This document shows positions 51,016-59,910 of a stretch of 64,000 nucleotides of DNA, piece by piece (the stretch's first letter is position 1; every line of letters starts with the position of its first letter). The translations under genes were made by a program, and so were the position numbers. Origin of the DNA: Aquabacterium sp. (GTDB lineage Bacteria; Pseudomonadota; Gammaproteobacteria; Burkholderiales; Burkholderiaceae_C); NCBI RefSeq assembly GCF_016195855.1, contig NZ_JACPYU010000027.1, positions 1-64,000 on the forward strand, in the 5' to 3' direction. A model generated the notes under the pieces. It searched no databases. It was given only the letters and a program-made list of their open reading frames with translations, and was not told the origin of the DNA.

Positions 51016-52914
51016 TTGACAACGCAAGAAGATCCACAGATTGCCGAAATGCCCAGTAGTCCCTGGGTCAGGTTTCTTCGAAGCTATGGCCCGACGGCGA
51101 ACAACTTGACCATGTTCGACGAATATGTGACAAGTGCGTTGGGCAGGGCCAAGGTTCAGCCAATTCAGCTGTCGACACCCTTGCTCGACGACATGGTGCG
51201 GCACATTGAAGCTCGGGCGCCGGGATCGCTGTTGATCGCAGGAACAGCGGGTGACGGCAAAACATACCATTGCCGCTCCCTGTGGACTCGCATTGGCGGT
51301 GACCCGAAGGTCTGGGCGAGCAAGGGTAACGTGAAGGAGCATCTGCTGGCCGACGGGCGCCTGGCGGTGTTCATTAAAGATCTCTCTGAGTTCAATGGCG
51401 AAGAGAGCGACCTGCCGCTACAAAGGCTGGAACGGTCTGTTCTTGGCAACGACGATTCTGAAGTCGTGGTTCTGGCCGCCAACCACGGCCAGCTTCTTGA
51501 TCGCTTGCGTGATCTTGGCAAACGGCAAGGTCGAACCCACCCGCTCCGCAAGCCTTTGCAGGAGAGTTTTCTACAATCCGGGCCTGCCCCAGATCGTCTT
51601 GCCGTCTTTGACCTAAGCCGATCGACTAGCCGCAAGACACTCGACGAGGTTGCCATGGCGGTGGCTGGGCATTCCGAGTGGGCCAACTGCTCGCGCTGTA
51701 CTTTGAAAGCCGACGGGAAAGTCTGCCCGATCGACGAGAACCGTCTCCGGCTGCTTGGTAAAACCGATGACGGGCAGCTCGCGCGTCGTCTTGGCGATTT
51801 GGTAGAGATAGCTCGACTCAATGGGCTCCATCTGCCGGTTCGAGATCTATTGGCGCTTTGCGCCAACATGGTTCTCGGCTACGCCGATGCCAAGCTGGCC
51901 AAAGAGAACCTGATGACCTGTGCCGATGTGCCCAAGATTCAAGAGAGCGGGCAAGTCGGCAAGGCCAGTATCTACGCCAACGCCTTTGGCGCAAATTTGC
52001 CTAAGCGCAGGGCATCAGACCGCCCAGTATTCAGGGCCATGGCCAGCTTTGGTGTGGGTGAGGAGACCACCAATGCGGCTGATGGCTTACTTGTCTATGG
52101 CAAAGACGACTCCCGCATGCAAGCTGACTTTGAGCGCTTGGTGTCAGTCGATCCAATCTACGGTGCAACAGCGGAGTTCCGTGCAGCCCAAGATGCCTAC
52201 CTCGAAGGCCATGAGGGAGCTCGCTTGGAGGGCGGCTCTACCGAGTTCTTGGAAATGCTCGAAGCCCAGCGGCGCAGGCTCTATTTCTCTTTGCCTGAGT
52301 CCGAGCCGGGATATCCACGCTGGTCGATGACAGCCTTCCGCTTCGCTGGAGACTACTTGGACATGATCGGATCACTTAAAGCCAAGAAGCCAGTGAGCGA
52401 GATCACACGCGGTCGTATCACCCGCGGCCTCAACCGAGTCATGACGGGCTTGCTCTTGGAGAATGTGGATCGAATCTTCATCGCGAGCTCCGGCGGCTTT
52501 ACACAAAGTCGCGTGAGTGTGCTTTGCGACCACGAGACGCCTTCGCGCAGGCAGGGCGGTATTGGCATGGCCATCAAGCTTGATGAGGAGACCGGCCGCG
52601 CGCAGCTTGACGTGTCGCTCTCGCCTGTGCCTGGCAACTCGGTCGCGTTCGACCTCTCCCCCATCCGGTATGAATTTCTTTCCCGCGTGGCCGAAGGCGC
52701 GCTGCCAGCCAGCTTCTCCAATGAGTGCCTGGAAGATCTGCTGGCATTCAAGGCCAAGCTCCTGCGCAAGGCCGAGATTGTTCGAAAGGCTGGTTTCGCA
52801 GGGGACGACGACGAGGTAAGCGGAGAGGCATCCGCGTTGACGCTGAATTTCATCGACATTGAGCCTGGAGGCCGTGGCTTCACACGACCAGTGATCGTGA
52901 GGGTCCCGCAATGA
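51016..52914 (+). CDS. P-loop ATPase of an uncharacterised three-gene operon (DptF-like?)
   Basis: 632 aa. The start is TTG at 51016 with GGGAG eight bases upstream. Walker A is GTAGDGKT (76-83); a hydrophobic strand with D122 (LAVFIKDLSEF) may be Walker B; VVLAANHGQL near 151-160 looks like a sensor strand. A cysteine cluster C225-x2-C228-x8-C237 may bind zinc. The rest has no motif I recognise. The GTAGDGKT-YHCR P-loop and cysteine cluster recall DptF (DndF), the ATPase of phosphorothioate-dependent restriction, but this is from memory and no dnd genes are present. It overlaps the next gene by ATGA. Defence is the likely role, unproven. Confidence 0.85.
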   Translation: MTTQEDPQIAEMPSSPWVRFLRSYGPTANNLTMFDEYVTSALGRAKVQPIQLSTPLLDDMVRHIEARAPGSLLIAGTAGDGKTYHCRSLWTRIGGDPKVWASKGNVKEHLLADGRLAVFIKDLSEFNGEESDLPLQRLERSVLGNDDSEVVVLAANHGQLLDRLRDLGKRQGRTHPLRKPLQESFLQSGPAPDRLAVFDLSRSTSRKTLDEVAMAVAGHSEWANCSRCTLKADGKVCPIDENRLRLLGKTDDGQLARRLGDLVEIARLNGLHLPVRDLLALCANMVLGYADAKLAKENLMTCADVPKIQESGQVGKASIYANAFGANLPKRRASDRPVFRAMASFGVGEETTNAADGLLVYGKDDSRMQADFERLVSVDPIYGATAEFRAAQDAYLEGHEGARLEGGSTEFLEMLEAQRRRLYFSLPESEPGYPRWSMTAFRFAGDYLDMIGSLKAKKPVSEITRGRITRGLNRVMTGLLLENVDRIFIASSGGFTQSRVSVLCDHETPSRRQGGIGMAIKLDEETGRAQLDVSLSPVPGNSVAFDLSPIRYEFLSRVAEGALPASFSNECLEDLLAFKAKLLRKAEIVRKAGFAGDDDEVSGEASALTLNFIDIEPGGRGFTRPVIVRVPQ

Positions 52915-54470
52915 GCGAGATCTTCAAACGCCCCGAGATCAAGAGCGTCAACTTCTGTGTCGATGAGAACATTTGGGGACATCGACTCTACGACGAACAA
53001 CTGCCTCATTTGACGGTGCTCGAATTCCTAGGCGCGCTCGGCTCGAACTTGGACAAGCCGCTGCGCCCTCATGAAGGTTTGGGCGGTGCATTTAAGTTCC
53101 AGCCACAGCGCCAGATCCGCCTGCGCGGGTTGCTGTTCAATAACCCCTACGTCGACTCCATTTCGGAGAGCAAACTCGCCGACGAAGAGAAATGGCGACT
53201 GTGGTTCGAGCGGTTTAGCCAAGGTGCAACAGGCAACGGTGACGGCGTCAATGACATCGCCTACCTGCGCCACGCGTTTGCGAGCTTCGACGATTTCGCC
53301 AAAGCTGTGGAGCTCCTGCGCTCATCATCCTTCGAGTCCCGCAGCAACAAACGCTGGAGCTCCAAGTTCGTATTTCCCTTCGGCCCCGATGCCCTCTATG
53401 AAGATTTAGAGATCGACGCCAAGGGCAAGATGAGCAATGACCGGCGTTTCTTTGCTCGTACCGGCGAGCTGCTCTACATGATGCTAACGCGGGCCAAACG
53501 CGGCGCGGAGCTCGGCGACATGTTGGCGAAGCGACTGTTCGACCCTGAAGCGCCGATGAATCGACTCGCACGTGTGATGCAGGGCGCGCCACAGCGTGCT
53601 GAGGACTCGCGGCTATCAGGCTATCTGCCCGAGGCTGCCAACCCACGCTTCGATCAAATCTGTGATGACTGGCTTGCGGTTCTGTCCAAGGACATGCCAA
53701 TCTATGATGCCTTAGAGCACTTGATTGCCATCTCTGGCCTCAACATGCTGCTCTACTTCCTAGAACGTGCGAAACGCGTAGCTGGTGACGACGACCCTGT
53801 TGAAATCGTCTGCGAGATCGTCTCTAAGGAGCGCACGAAAGTTCGAGCGCTTTCTGGCGATAGCTACCTGCACAACCAAGGCTTGCCTGCCAAGGCAGTG
53901 CGGGCCCATGTTGAATCGATCAGGCAGGACGCTGCCTGGAGCAAAGCAGACGACTGCGACCTTCCCGAGGCCGAGCGAGTCAAACTCATGCGCGAGCGCT
54001 TCCAGTGGCCCTCGATTGACGGAGGGGACGACGAGGACTATTCGGGTGAAAGCCCAGACGCGTTAATCAACAAGCTGGTCGAACTCGCTCTAGCCCGCCA
54101 CGAGCAACACGTCGGCAAGATCCACGCATCTTGGTCGCGCGCGATTGGCCTCAGTTCCCGACGTCTGTCGCGCCGCACTCGCTACGCGCCCAATGACCGA
54201 CTATTGAAGTCGATCGTGGTGGCCATCGTCGACGACCGGATGCAGTTCGACGAGTTTTTGGCAGAGGCCAAGAGGCGCTATGGACTGATCCTGGGAGACG
54301 CCGAAGGTTCGCGCATGATCGACGCCAAGCTCGTCGACCAAGATGAACTCAGTGAGAACCGGGACAACCTTGAAGCCCGGCTCGTCGGGCTGGGCCTGGT
54401 GCGCAGACTTTCCGATTCCTGCTCTTTTGTTGAAAACCCGTTCGCCTTCAAGGGAGAGGCCGCATGCTGA
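52911..54470 (+). CDS. Uncharacterised protein, second gene of the ATPase operon (DptG-like?)
   Basis: 519 aa, soluble, no signal peptide. The N-terminal half is rich in aromatic and charged residues with no known motif. The last 100 residues, from APNDRLLKSIVVAIVDDRMQ through YGLILGDAEG to GLVRRLSDSCSFVENPF, read like a winged-helix domain often seen at the end of proteins in defence loci. Its place, ATGA-coupled after a P-loop ATPase and overlapping the third gene by 7 bp, means the three products are probably made together and form a complex. DptG-like is a guess. Confidence 0.82.
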   Translation: MSEIFKRPEIKSVNFCVDENIWGHRLYDEQLPHLTVLEFLGALGSNLDKPLRPHEGLGGAFKFQPQRQIRLRGLLFNNPYVDSISESKLADEEKWRLWFERFSQGATGNGDGVNDIAYLRHAFASFDDFAKAVELLRSSSFESRSNKRWSSKFVFPFGPDALYEDLEIDAKGKMSNDRRFFARTGELLYMMLTRAKRGAELGDMLAKRLFDPEAPMNRLARVMQGAPQRAEDSRLSGYLPEAANPRFDQICDDWLAVLSKDMPIYDALEHLIAISGLNMLLYFLERAKRVAGDDDPVEIVCEIVSKERTKVRALSGDSYLHNQGLPAKAVRAHVESIRQDAAWSKADDCDLPEAERVKLMRERFQWPSIDGGDDEDYSGESPDALINKLVELALARHEQHVGKIHASWSRAIGLSSRRLSRRTRYAPNDRLLKSIVVAIVDDRMQFDEFLAEAKRRYGLILGDAEGSRMIDAKLVDQDELSENRDNLEARLVGLGLVRRLSDSCSFVENPFAFKGEAAC

Positions 54471-56286
54471 CCGACCGCATCATCGGGCGCGTCGGCGCGG
54501 ACATCCTCGCCAAGCGCATTTCTAGTCCTGGACAGCCCGGAGACACTGCCGCATTGTTCCGGCTCGACAAGCTCTCGTCCAGTCAAATAGCGGCTGTGGC
54601 ACGGGCAATCCTCGCCAATCCAGACCTTCTCTCCCGCGTGGATCTCATGATCCCAGAGACCTTGGTTGACGGCCAAGGCCTGCCATCCGAGATCCTGATT
54701 TCACACAACGCAGGCTACGTACGCAACAACGCGACGACCGCCAAGGCAGCCATCCTGACCGCAAACGGCAACGAGCACAACTTGGCAGACACGCTGGGGC
54801 ATGTCATGGCCATTGGCGCCAAGGAGCTGCGCACCGACCCTGAGTTGTGGGTCGAGGCTACGTTGCACGCAGGTGGCCTCACTCCGGTGCCTGACGACCG
54901 CTTGGTGTTCCAGGCTGCGTTAGGCGGCCTCCTTGCGTCTTCTGAGCTCTCACTTGTTCAGCTCGGCGAGTTCTGCTCCGAGATCGTCGTTGCCATGTCC
55001 ACTCGCGGGCTTGCCATCCGCGATGCGGTGGGCTTCGCTATGCCACGAGCGGGGTTGCCTCGTGACAGCGCGTTCTTCTCCAACGCCAAGAGCTTTGGAT
55101 CTCTGCGCAAGCCTTGGCAGAAGGCCTTCGCTAAGCTCTTCACCCAGCGCGCACCGCTGCTGAAAAAACTTCGTCAGAACGGTCAACCTCTCGACCCCGA
55201 GGAGTTGAGCGAGCGTATTGAAGCCAACGCTGCTGAGATTGCTGAGGCAGCGCGCCTGGCGCTCGACGCATTCGCCGCTGCACCGGCGGGAGATCAGGAA
55301 GCGGCGCACGCTCTGGCTCAGTTTGAGTGGGAGGCTGATGGCGTCTACCTGGCCTTTGATAAGCCAAAGGAGAAGCAGCTCGGGTTGGCCGATGCAACGG
55401 TTCGCTTCTTCGACCATGACTGTGATCAAGAGAATTCGCTCGACTCTGAAGGCCGCAAGCTCCTTGAGGACTTGAAGTCCCGTGAGCGTCGCTCTGACTT
55501 CACCGAGGAAGATGAGGAGTTCTTCGTCAAGCATCGTCGGCTGCTTGAGCAAGACGTCAAACTATGCGCACGCTGGGAGAAGGCACTCTACGGCAAGCCC
55601 ATCGAGTGCAACGACTTTTTCGACGGCTTTGCCCGCGTAGTGAACAGCCTCCATGCGGGCCTGCGCGATGCAGAAGGCGAGCGCATCCTGCGCTTCACAG
55701 TGACCAAAGGTCGCAAGGAGTGGCGCGAGCGCTTCAATTACGACGCTGGCAGCTATTTTTCGGCCATGTATCGTGGGCTCAAGGAACTCATGGGGTCCAA
55801 AGCAGATTGGAAGGTCGAGCGACTTGGCAATGCCAACCTACCCGTGCAGCCGACGCGCCCCCCTGCTTGCGCGTGCTCTTGCCGGGCGATCGGCGTTCAG
55901 CGAAGGAGAGACTGGGCGTGTACTGGGATCATTTCCCGCGCCTGCTAGGCGCCGACGTGTCCCTGCTGCAGGGCACGTTAGAGCTATTGATCGTGCCTGA
56001 CATCCTCGTGTGTGCGTTATTTCATTTCCATCTGGCGCATCAGCCAATCGGCATCCCGATGGGGTTTGTCTCGACGCGCGAAGATCACATCCAGACGGCT
56101 GCAGCCATGTTGTCGGGGAAAGTGCTCGGCAAGCCTGATGCGCTTACGCCCGCACGTGAGGATGAGGGCAGCGAGGCCGTCAAGGACGTTAGGATGCTTT
56201 TGGAAAGGTGGAAGGGGCAGAGTACCTCGATACTTCCAACTCTGAACGGCCGGCCCCGCATCGTGCTGAAAAAGCCAGTGGCGTGA
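54464..56286 (+). pseudogene. Third gene of the ATPase operon, interrupted by a frameshift in a C6 run
   Basis: Reads 463 codons with normal appearance from MLTDRIIGRVGADILAKRIS to about RLGNANLPVQ, then a stop at 55948 in that frame. One frame over, the text continues sensibly as LRVLLPGDRRSAKERLGVYW to RPRIVLKKPVA and stops at 56286. Adding one C to the run CCCCCC at 55858-55863 would give one protein of 607 aa. No motor or nuclease motif recognised; an acidic coiled stretch lies near residues 325-370. The N-terminus vaguely recalls DptH but the FtsK/HerA ATPase part of that protein is absent. Either a real loss or a homopolymer sequencing error. Confidence 0.7.
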
Positions 56287-56656: not shown

Positions 56657-56872
56657 TCACCGTTTTCTCTTTCTTGACACCTTCAGGCCAAGCGCGGCCC
56701 CGAGCACTGCCGAGGCCAGCCATGCACTCAAGAAAAGCTGCAAGGCCAGCGGATCCCTGTCGAACAGGCTATCTCGCGGGTCAAGGTTCAATGCAGCCCA
56801 AGACAGCAAGCAGCCCCACGCCAGAGCAGAGCCGGCCAAGATGCCAAGAAGAGTGAAGAGTACTCGCTTCAT
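56657..56872 (-). CDS. Two-helix small membrane protein, candidate immunity protein
   Basis: 71 aa. Hydrophobic segments at about residues 4-28 and 45-64 joined by LNLDPRDSLFDRDPLAL, with a basic C-terminus KVSRKRKR. Its ATG overlaps the stop codon of the amidase gene (TGATG), so the two are translationally coupled. The gene after a T6SS amidase normally encodes its immunity protein; known Tai4 proteins are periplasmic and soluble, whereas this one is membrane-embedded. No family recognised. Confidence 0.72.
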   Translation of the reverse strand: MKRVLFTLLGILAGSALAWGCLLSWAALNLDPRDSLFDRDPLALQLFLSAWLASAVLGAALGLKVSRKRKR

Positions 56873-57447
56873 CAGTCAATCGGGAAGAACCGGATCTTCC
56901 TCGCCTTTCGCAGGTCGGACCAGACACCGAACGGAATGACGATGCCAAAGCGTGCACGAAGCCCTGAACCCGCAGCCGTCATCTTGCTGCCATTCCACAG
57001 GTCGATGTGATCCCCGCCAGATCCGCCTGACGGGGCATAGTAGTCCTCAAAGCAAATGATGCCTGTACGGTCTGCCACCTTGTCAAACCAGTCGGCGCCC
57101 GTCACCTGCTCCGACATCTTGCAGCCGACGAAGGGCTGCAACTCCAGCCAGTCCGCGAGCTCCGCTGCCGACAAGATGTGATCAGCCTCCGGATGGACCC
57201 AGCATTTGCGCTTGGCGGGGTATGACTTGAAGGTTACGCCCGACTTCTTCAAGGCGTAGCTCACCCTGATTGCGCATTGATTGGCGAACAGCTTCTTGCC
57301 GTCCTTGTCTTTGGCATCGCATGGATCACTGCCCGGATAGTTCCGCCACAGATCCTCAAACCGAACAGCCTGCACGTTGACCTTGCAGATCGAGCCCTTT
57401 TGCGGATTAGTCTTGATCTTCGCGGTTTGCTTGATTGCCGTGGTCAT
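56872..57447 (-). CDS. Type VI secretion amidase effector, Tae4-like
   Basis: 191 aa. The NlpC/P60-type catalytic residues are visible: C58 in LFANQCAIRVSYAL, H147 in GGDHIDLWNG with D149 close by. Tae4 enzymes cut the peptide cross-links of peptidoglycan in neighbouring cells after delivery by the T6SS. The start ATG overlaps the stop codon of the PAAR gene (ATGA) and the small membrane protein follows with a 1-bp overlap. No signal peptide, as expected for a T6SS cargo. Confidence 0.88.
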   Translation of the reverse strand: MTTAIKQTAKIKTNPQKGSICKVNVQAVRFEDLWRNYPGSDPCDAKDKDGKKLFANQCAIRVSYALKKSGVTFKSYPAKRKCWVHPEADHILSAAELADWLELQPFVGCKMSEQVTGADWFDKVADRTGIICFEDYYAPSGGSGGDHIDLWNGSKMTAAGSGLRARFGIVIPFGVWSDLRKARKIRFFPID

Positions 57448-58022
57448 GCCTTCGCAAGCTCCATTTCAACGATGGCTGCATCACCCCAGTAGGCTTCGTA
57501 CTGTTGCGCGCTATCGGTGATGACGCGGGGCAACTGCCCCTGGTCATCCAGCCGCCCGGAGAAGGTCCGGCCGTCTTGCGTTCGAATGAACCAGGGAACG
57601 CCGACCAGGGTAGCGGTATCGCAATCCACGACAAGCTTGGTCTGTTCGTCAAATTCGAAGGTGACCTCTTCTCGGACAGCCGGGCTTGAGAGGCCTGCGG
57701 CCGTGGCCGCTGCCTTCTGCGCCTGGCTTGCCGCAGCCGAGTTAGAGGCGCCTCCCTCCAGGGTTGTTGACACGACCTGGCTGGCAATCAAGGTCGCACC
57801 ACACGCACACTTGTCACCATGACGTGCGGCAGGCATGCCATCAATGATCATGGTCGGATCGCCTGAGACGATCACGGTCGTGCCGTGCCCCTTCTTCGGG
57901 CACGTTACTTGGTCGCCAACGCGGGCGATGCGTTTGCCGTGGGTGTCGGTCGTGCCGGAGGCACCGACCACGACGCCGCCGTGATCGGTCGGATCGCCGA
58001 TCACGATGAAGGGTCTGGACAT
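57444..58022 (-). CDS. PAAR-domain T6SS spike protein
   Basis: 192 aa. Residues 1-85 are a PAAR domain: RPFIVIGDPTDHGGVVVGAS, VGDQVTCPKKGHGTTVIVSG, DGMPAARHGDKCACGATLIA, with the His/Cys zinc ligands. A linker of Ala/Ser/Gln (about 90-110) leads to a 75-residue C-terminal domain with EVTFEFDEQTKLVVD. PAAR proteins tip the VgrG spike and carry effectors; the C-terminal part may bind Tae4. No VgrG, Hcp or other T6SS gene is in the window. Confidence 0.88.
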   Translation of the reverse strand: MSRPFIVIGDPTDHGGVVVGASGTTDTHGKRIARVGDQVTCPKKGHGTTVIVSGDPTMIIDGMPAARHGDKCACGATLIASQVVSTTLEGGASNSAAASQAQKAAATAAGLSSPAVREEVTFEFDEQTKLVVDCDTATLVGVPWFIRTQDGRTFSGRLDDQGQLPRVITDSAQQYEAYWGDAAIVEMELAKA

Positions 58023-58067
58023 TGAACAATCCCTGTGCTTTGAATTGTCCAGCACTCTAGCAAAGCT

Positions 58068-59013: not shown

Positions 59014-59910
59014 TCAGTAAGGACAGTTGCCCTTGTAGCCACTGATCACCTTGCCGAACAGGTCCAGCTGATGCGGCACGCCGCACAGGAAGGGGCTGTA
59101 GCGGGTGTCCTCGTCCAGGAAGCGCTTGAACCACGAGACGGTGTACTTGGCGGCCATGGTCTTGACCTGTGCGCTGGTGCCCAGGCTGGTCGTGCAGGGG
59201 TGGCCGCCGCCGCCTTGCAGCTCCAGATAGGCCTTGTCCAGTGTGGGCGACAAGCTCTTGTAGATCGGCTCGGAGTGGGCCGATGCCGTGGCCACCACAT
59301 CGCCCTTGCAAGCCAGGATCAAGGTGGGCACGGTGAGCTTGCTGTAGTCGGTGCCCCCCACCACATAGGGCGCCATGGGCACGATGGCCTTGATGGCCGG
59401 GTTGTCACGGGCCAGCTCCAGCGTGGCCCCGCCGCCCATGGAGTGGCCCATGGCCCCCAGGCGCGTGGCGTCCACCAGGCCGTGGAAGGGGCTGTCCGGC
59501 AAGGCGCTGCGGCGCACCACGTCCTTGAGCGCGGCCAGCTCTTCTCTGGCGCGGGCAGACGGGAACGCGAGTGTGGACATGGTGTCGATGTTGACCACCA
59601 CAAAGCCATGCGAGGCCAGATATGCGGCCCACCACGCGTTCCAGCTCTGGGTCTCAATGAAGCCTGGGGTCACCACCACCAGGCCAAATGGCCCGCTTGC
59701 ATTGCTGGGGTAATAAACGGTGCCCGCCTTGTAGCCAAGGGGTGCGGCGAGCACCGTGCTGGCCGTGCGGAATGGCCCGGCTGCGGCCTCCAGCGAGGCG
59801 ATCGTGGGGTCCGGGCCGCGCTGGTAGGCCTCGGCGACATCGGCGTGCGCCAGGGTAGACACGGCCAGCAAGGCGGCCGACAAACTCAAGGCAAGTGAAG
59901 TGTGTTTCAT
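59014..59910 (-). CDS. PETase-like secreted polyester hydrolase (dienelactone/cutinase-type alpha/beta hydrolase)
   Basis: 298 aa, signal peptide ending AHA near residue 23. It tracks the Ideonella PETase sequence along its length: RGPDPTIASLEAAAGPF, AGTVYYPSNA, LASHGFVVVNIDT. Catalytic triad S157 (GHSMGG), D204 (CKGDVV) and H237 (GGGHPC). Both disulfides of type II PETases appear possible: C201-C239 and C276-C296. Differences from IsPETase: oxyanion Tyr is F84, the Trp before the serine is H156, the wobbling Trp is Y182, and Ser238 is Pro. So it is a cutinase/polyesterase-like enzyme; PET activity cannot be assumed. Stands alone. Confidence 0.9.
   Translation of the reverse strand: MKHTSLALSLSAALLAVSTLAHADVAEAYQRGPDPTIASLEAAAGPFRTASTVLAAPLGYKAGTVYYPSNASGPFGLVVVTPGFIETQSWNAWWAAYLASHGFVVVNIDTMSTLAFPSARAREELAALKDVVRRSALPDSPFHGLVDATRLGAMGHSMGGGATLELARDNPAIKAIVPMAPYVVGGTDYSKLTVPTLILACKGDVVATASAHSEPIYKSLSPTLDKAYLELQGGGGHPCTTSLGTSAQVKTMAAKYTVSWFKRFLDEDTRYSPFLCGVPHQLDLFGKVISGYKGNCPY

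Follow-up and report, generated by a model that had tools for sequence, protein, structure and literature searches.

Does a PETase-like gene whose groove residues depart from those of IsPETase encode a polyester hydrolase, and which of its residues set it apart? The question is raised by positions 59014-59910 of the window, the whole stretch of 64,000 nucleotides of Aquabacterium sp. DNA that was analysed, and the host bacterium belongs to the same family as the plastic-digesting bacterium. Work to engineer PET hydrolases has concentrated on a few residues, namely those at 87, 159, 185, 214/218 and 238. A sequence-only reading had described the gene as a PETase-like polyesterase of type II layout, with Phe at the oxyanion position as its headline.

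Reading frame, family and fold

The minus strand at 59014-59910 holds a single open frame of 298 aa, running from ATG at 59910-59908 to TGA at 59016-59014, and was assigned as a PETase-family (PF12740) hydrolase gene from the frame and the Pfam and phmmer matches. The plus-strand frame at the same place was rejected as antisense. The gene reported by the sequence-only reading, which named no strand, is real and its frame is the minus one. The GC content at codon positions 1, 2 and 3 was 60, 52 and 86%, and the four paralogues in the genome are alike in this respect. The Pfam PETase profile (PF12740) matched the protein with 293.4 bits (cut-off 28, E 1.9e-87) across residues 25-297 and profile positions 3-263 of 263. 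The score against NCBIfam NF051441, the equivalog profile of BHET hydrolase BdeA, was 267.5 bits for a cut-off of 520, so the protein is not BHET hydrolase BdeA.

The phmmer search of solved structures gave a best E of 1.9e-82; 7dzv, 7dzt, 7dzu and 7cwq (E 1.9e-82 to 9.7e-80) ranked before IsPETase and its variants, and the alignments with the solved PET-hydrolase-like chains cover residues 28-298. In the alignment made here the identity was 50.0% with 7dzt, presumably RgPETase, 48.5% with 7cwq and 46.7% with the IsPETase-type row L076, which we take to be IsPETase itself, and the Streptomyces lipase 1jfr (47.3%) is about as near as L076. The N-terminus, MKHTSLALSLSAALLAVSTLAHA|D, is hydrophobic across about residues 4-23, and residues 1-23 (59842-59910, minus strand) resemble a signal peptide by hydropathy, with a putative cleavage AHA|D placed by eye. 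This resemblance suggests that the protein is probably secreted.

The first structure prediction (5-row alignment, pLDDT 42.9) was unusable, and the better one, made for the mature part with a 4-row alignment, was of low confidence (mean pLDDT 57.3, pTM 0.67). Foldseek on this low-confidence model returned PET hydrolases as the best solved matches (E 1.1e-20, TM 0.67-0.72, rmsd at least 5.6 A), and PET hydrolases were also best in a second structural comparison of the same model, with Z 19-20 over 220-239 residues and rmsd 3.0-3.9 A. The loops carrying F84 and H237/P238 have pLDDT below 50. The active-site modelling proposed earlier thus returned the PET-hydrolase fold but not these loops, and the predicted model speaks for the fold only and not for active-site geometry.

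Active-site residues and their frequency among relatives

The residue positions were numbered on L076. F84, H156, S157, M158, Y182, D204, H237 and P238 align with positions 87, 159, 160, 161, 185, 206, 237 and 238, respectively, which bears out every letter and place that had been given for F84, H156, Y182, P238 and the triad. On the minus strand, F84 is at 59659-59661, the oxyanion-hole and clamp position (Y87 of IsPETase), and W90 at 59641-59643, the S93 position. The nucleophile elbow GHSMGGGA follows, with G155-H156-S157-M158 at 59437-59448, and then Y182 at the position of the wobbling Trp, W185 (59365-59367), the catalytic D204 (59299-59301) and I216 at the I218 position (59263-59265). 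The catalytic H237, P238 (S238 in IsPETase) and C239, whose expected partner is C201, are encoded at 59194-59202. The Ser157-Asp204-His237 triad is intact. Cys occurs just four times, at 201/239 and 276/296; the matching sites in L076 are 203/239 and 273/289, in agreement with the two disulfide pairs claimed earlier, the pairing itself being predicted. The extended loop from C239 to the conserved W260 (59131-59196, minus strand) has 22 residues here. It is shorter both in the IsPETase-type row and two related PDB rows (19) and in the four type I reference rows (16).

The published types fit the protein in part. The type II features given in PMC5785972 are present, namely an extra Cys pair near the active site besides the C-terminal pair and the extended loop. 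The lipase box GHSMG departs from the type II box G-W-S-M-G as quoted in PMC12442448, and Pro238 departs from the type IIa residues, Phe/Tyr at 238, as His156 and Pro238 do from the IsPETase-like subsite II of type IIb, Trp159 with Ser238 (both as worded in PMC5785972). Type I (one Cys pair, no extended loop) does not agree with two pairs and a 22-residue loop, nor type III (non-aromatic 87, G-H-S-Q-G box) with F84 and GHSMG. Since the type II box and the IIa and IIb residue rules are broken, the protein was assigned to PF12740 and to no PETase type, its skeleton being that of type II; the Cys pairs and extended loop of the earlier type II assignment stand, and its box and subtype residues do not. 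The M5-PETase elements that PMC12224614 writes as [PG]G[YF], Met after Ser and DxDxR(Y)xxFxC are present as PGF at 82, GHSMGGGA at 155 and DEDTRYSPFLC at 266, and the four-glycine element of that motif reads GGGA after S-M.

The frequency of each residue was counted in 65 natural full-length rows (53 from the genus, 9 from its family and 3 actinobacteria), a sample that leans to one genus and in which the counts are of sequences, not independent events. Six PDB reference rows were kept outside the count and three rows without the catalytic Ser (L045, L118 and L070) inside it; the fragment L044, a partial copy in L077, the distant phycisphaeral/planctomycete L009-L011 and duplicate or contained copies were dropped beforehand. 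The genus accounts for 54 PF12740 places read, 53 of them in the 65 rows and L044 apart.

Position 87 is Phe in 57/65 rows and Tyr in 5/65, and position 159 is His in 40/65 and Trp in 16/65, so F84 and H156 are ordinary, being the commonest states. The candidate feature Phe84 was rejected on this count. The efficient PET hydrolase PHL7 carries F63 at position 87 and its F63Y variant is slightly less active (PMC10076380), and in PMC5785972 the oxyanion hole consists of two backbone N atoms, that of Tyr87 and that of the residue following Ser; for these reasons together Phe at the oxyanion position is not notable. At position 185, 54/65 rows carry Trp and 6 carry Ala, of which two are Ser-less; Tyr and Val are found twice each and Gln once, the second Tyr row being Kribbella antibiotica L007, whose close relative L008 carries Trp. 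Pro at 238 was found once, beside Phe (29/65), Leu (22) and Ser (8). Residue 165 is Ala in the protein and in 8 other rows. All four positions named in the sequence-only reading differ from IsPETase, and of these Y182 and P238 are rare and F84 and H156 are not; the gene is a genuine natural variant in residues that line the groove.

Two further rare residues, I216 and W90, were absent from the sequence-only reading, which was a good reading with a misplaced headline. Position 218 is Phe in 51/65 rows, and its four Ile rows are this gene, L076 and two Ser-less rows. PMC10080609 describes Ser214 and Ile218 as peculiar to IsPETase, where the other known PET hydrolases carry His and Phe, and as jointly promoting clamp mobility and activity; the present protein has His and Ile, the His being shared by 51/65 rows. 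Trp at position 93 occurs in this gene alone, but it may mean little, as the site varies (Ser 26/65, Tyr 12, Val 9, Ala 8, Thr 6). PMC12442448 handles the Ser93 position under subsite II.

Genome, genus and phylogeny

Five divergent PF12740 genes were found in the genome at E 1e-20 (G000 C1:71397, C5:59017, C17:75763, C17:222926 and C20:495483; none in tandem), the top count among 42 genomes of the genus; the fragmented assembly G013, with four genes and a short partial match (E 7.8e-11), might tie. The residues at 87/159/161/185/238 are F/H/M/Y/P in the gene at 59014-59910 and Y/H/M/W/L, F/H/A/A/L, F/H/M/W/L and F/W/M/W/F in its paralogues L002, L003, L004 and L005. The genome is thus a natural panel of different residue sets on one scaffold, useful for asking what sets substrate choice. 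L003 belongs to an Ala161/Ala185 clade seen in four genomes (the others being L033, L036 and L078), and, outside this clade, one row in L057 and one in L084 combine Ala161 with Val185. Across the genus 28/42 genomes carried PF12740, with 54 genes in total. A survey of the wider family, scoring at most 8 candidates per genome, gave 8/299 positive genomes, of which 3 are in the genus; outside the genus, at most 295 genomes of the family were sampled and 5 had PF12740, and no PF12740 gene was found in 14 control genomes. With a single Pfam model, no PF07519 (Tannase) gene was found in the genome over the cut-off of 29.8 bits, one weak match reaching 20.9 bits; PF07519 is presumably the MHETase family, and a PETase/MHETase pathway is thus not evident.

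The neighbouring genes give no functional hint. On one side are genes for a methyltransferase, a GNAT acetyltransferase, a TetR regulator and a RIO kinase, and on the other PAAR and Tae4. The latter two lie at 56872-58055 on the minus strand, the gene for the PAAR protein coming first and that for Tae4, a type VI amidase effector, after it. At 51016-55948 on the plus strand, SspF and SspG defence genes precede an SspH match of 494 aa, which reaches no further than about position 450 in profiles with lengths of 1255-1766; the three seem to form a phosphorothioation-linked defence operon that has been truncated. The RIO-kinase gene lies 3.2 kb from the gene at 59014-59910. Its homologue (about 76% identity) adjoins the family gene in L028-L030 and in L122-L124 but not in L125, and no RIO gene was seen in the 12 kb around L031; the adjacency lends weak support to a shared descent of the place.

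No close orthologue was found in the genomes searched, and no relative in 49 candidate stretches of viral contigs. A scan of genome contigs with the single sequence as query gave 22 loci, three of them close and full-length (one Streptomonospora, two Kribbella), and L012-L027 from that scan had no open frame of at least 150 aa matching the family profile at E 1e-20. The plasmid search returned five records, all below 60% identity, one being annotated as poly(ethylene terephthalate) hydrolase, from Piscinibacter gummiphilus.

In the 63-row tree, which leaves out L044, L045 and L070, the gene falls within a 27-row genus-only set (SH-aLRT 99) apart from the IsPETase branch. The quick tree pairs it with L031 (SH-aLRT 90), a pairing for which the program flagged long branches meeting, and its own branch is long (0.73). 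In the topology tests on quick trees, from which L118 was also left out, forcing the gene with five rows of the IsPETase branch was 20.0 lnL worse (p-AU 0.097), and forcing its five-row group with them was 24.9 lnL worse (p-AU 0.044); the group of the gene with L028-L031 was not rejected (p-AU 0.515). On these quick trees separation from the IsPETase branch appears likely, and a type IIb placement by phylogeny is weakly disfavoured. The earlier reading had named a phylogeny outside the family as what would refute it; the PF12740 match and the trees keep the protein inside.

Other related genes were seen in passing. PF12740 proteins without the catalytic Ser occur in 3/42 genus genomes, at L045 700-2301 (plus strand, G006), L118 (G360) and L070 3-1454 (plus strand, G012). 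They are 534-codon open frames, about 480 aa from the likely start, with an N-terminal part of ~210 aa that has no Pfam match in L045 and L070. The catalytic Ser and His are missing and the clamp residues are altered too, while both Cys pairs are kept. The PETase domains of G006 and G360, the one pair compared, gave dN 0.015 and dS 0.159, and these proteins are apparently maintained PETase-fold pseudoenzymes. Four PETase-family genes are present in G271 (C1:1215924-1217884 and C1:2527300-2531988), which represents another genus of the family, and one of the four is 97.8% identical to L076, which belongs to a third genus.

Proposed function and comparison with known enzymes

The fold and the triad are near certain, and the substrate is less sure. 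The protein is probably a secreted PETase-family esterase that acts on polyesters or lipids, its aromatic clamp altered and its PET activity weak or absent; the name polyesterase stands for an activity that we infer from sequence. Weak or absent PET activity and a non-PET substrate are suggested by the clamp, F84/Y182 instead of an aromatic residue with Trp, together with Trp90 and Pro238. As in other members of the family, Ser157 would attack the ester carbonyl, with F84 and M158 holding the oxyanion through their backbone N; His237 would activate Ser and then water, so that the acyl-enzyme would be hydrolysed outside the cell in a two-step serine hydrolysis. The ester might be an aliphatic polyester, cutin/suberin or a lipid rather than PET. 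Counted for this reading are the spread of PF12740 in the genus (28/42 genomes, vs 5 of at most 295 family genomes outside it) and, by analogy, an Aquabacterium protein chosen as a PET-hydrolase homologue, which is reported to clear polycaprolactone (PMC10547765). A lipase of Aquabacterium parvum appears in the reference list of PMC12296185. Also counted for the reading of an esterase with an altered clamp are the loss of BHET activity to 5% in IsPETase W185A and Y87A (PMC5785972) and the lack of a PF07519 match over the cut-off. A Tyr at 185 does not by analogy forbid PET hydrolysis, since the type III HaloPETase1 has Tyr180 at this position and, as described in PMC12442448, degrades PET; this counts against the weak-PET reading, and so does the long branch, by which relaxed constraint is possible, against the preferred reading as a whole. 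No paper in the open-licence PMC literature linked W185Y or S238P to PETase or to each other.

A general secreted carboxylesterase or lipase kept for small esters, without polymer activity, is rather unlikely. The loss of the clamp Trp and the nearness of lipase 1jfr are in accordance with it, as is the long branch; the retention of both Cys pairs and of the extended loop and the keeping of family genes by most genomes of the genus argue against it. Also doubtful is a wider proposal, in which the gene would belong to an untyped PETase branch whose groove has been re-laid for a different natural polyester: the clamp Trp would have become Tyr, a Trp would stand at Ser93 of subsite II, and Ile218 and Pro238 would reshape the loops. 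The genus would then re-tool the scaffold repeatedly, as in the Ala161/Ala185 paralogue of the same genome, and would even maintain, by purifying selection, proteins of the PETase fold that lack Ser and that might serve to bind polymers.

It is quite unlikely that the protein truly hydrolyses PET as ably as IsPETase does, its odd residues being neutral or compensated and Tyr182 given room by Ile216. The type II skeleton, the precedent of HaloPETase1 and the Ile218 shared in the 65 rows only with L076 and two Ser-less rows speak for it, the last because Ile218 is half of the pair promoting clamp mobility; the other half is missing here, position 214 being His and not Ser. The single changes W159H and S238F are reported to reduce IsPETase activity dramatically (PMC5785972), though a double mutant with improved properties is discussed in the PHL7 paper (PMC10076380). 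In one study PET activity was seen only with the full M5 motif (PMC12224614), and the four-glycine element here is GGGA; the genome, moreover, has no PF07519 gene over the cut-off. A fast-evolving paralogue heading to catalytic loss, like the Ser-less members of the genus, is very improbable, for although Ile218 also occurs in two of the three Ser-less rows and a genus search with a Ser-less protein gave L029-, L030-, L028- and L031-type genes and the gene at 59014-59910 as best-scoring live genes, the open frame, signal-like start, triad, Cys pairs and codon-position GC are intact.

The secreted esterase with an altered clamp remains the preferred reading. By itself the gene changes little, Phe87 and His159 being common and Tyr185 having a characterised precedent (PMC12442448), and it is of interest as part of the panel rather than alone.

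Compared with known systems, the protein shares family, triad, Met after Ser, Cys pairs and extended loop with IsPETase (L076), the Burkholderiales cutinase 7cwq and 7dzt, all of type IIb, at 47-50% identity. It differs from them in having Phe and not Tyr at 87, His and not Trp at 159, Tyr and not Trp at 185, Pro and not Ser at 238, Trp and not Ser at 93, Ala and not Gly at 165 (93 and 165 of 7cwq and 7dzt being taken from phmmer alignments) and a loop of 22 and not 19 residues. Phe at 87 is shared with the type I enzymes PHL7 and PET40 and with lipase 1jfr of Streptomyces exfoliatus, and His at 159 with all of these and LCC; unlike the present protein these four, compared as PDB chains of which some are mutants, have no 203/239 Cys pair, a 16-residue loop and Trp at 185. 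HaloPETase1 resembles it in the Tyr at the Trp185 position; residue 87 of HaloPETase1, however, is Thr, its Ser is followed by Gln and its Cys pairs are placed differently, as described in PMC12442448. The same-genus L028-L031 (48-53% identity) share Phe, His and Met at 87, 159 and 161, but in all four position 185 is Trp and position 238 is Phe or Ser, and L031 is without the 203/239 pair. L028-L030, with both Cys pairs, His159 and a loop of 21 residues, are of the same mixed sort as the protein studied here, but with Trp185 retained.
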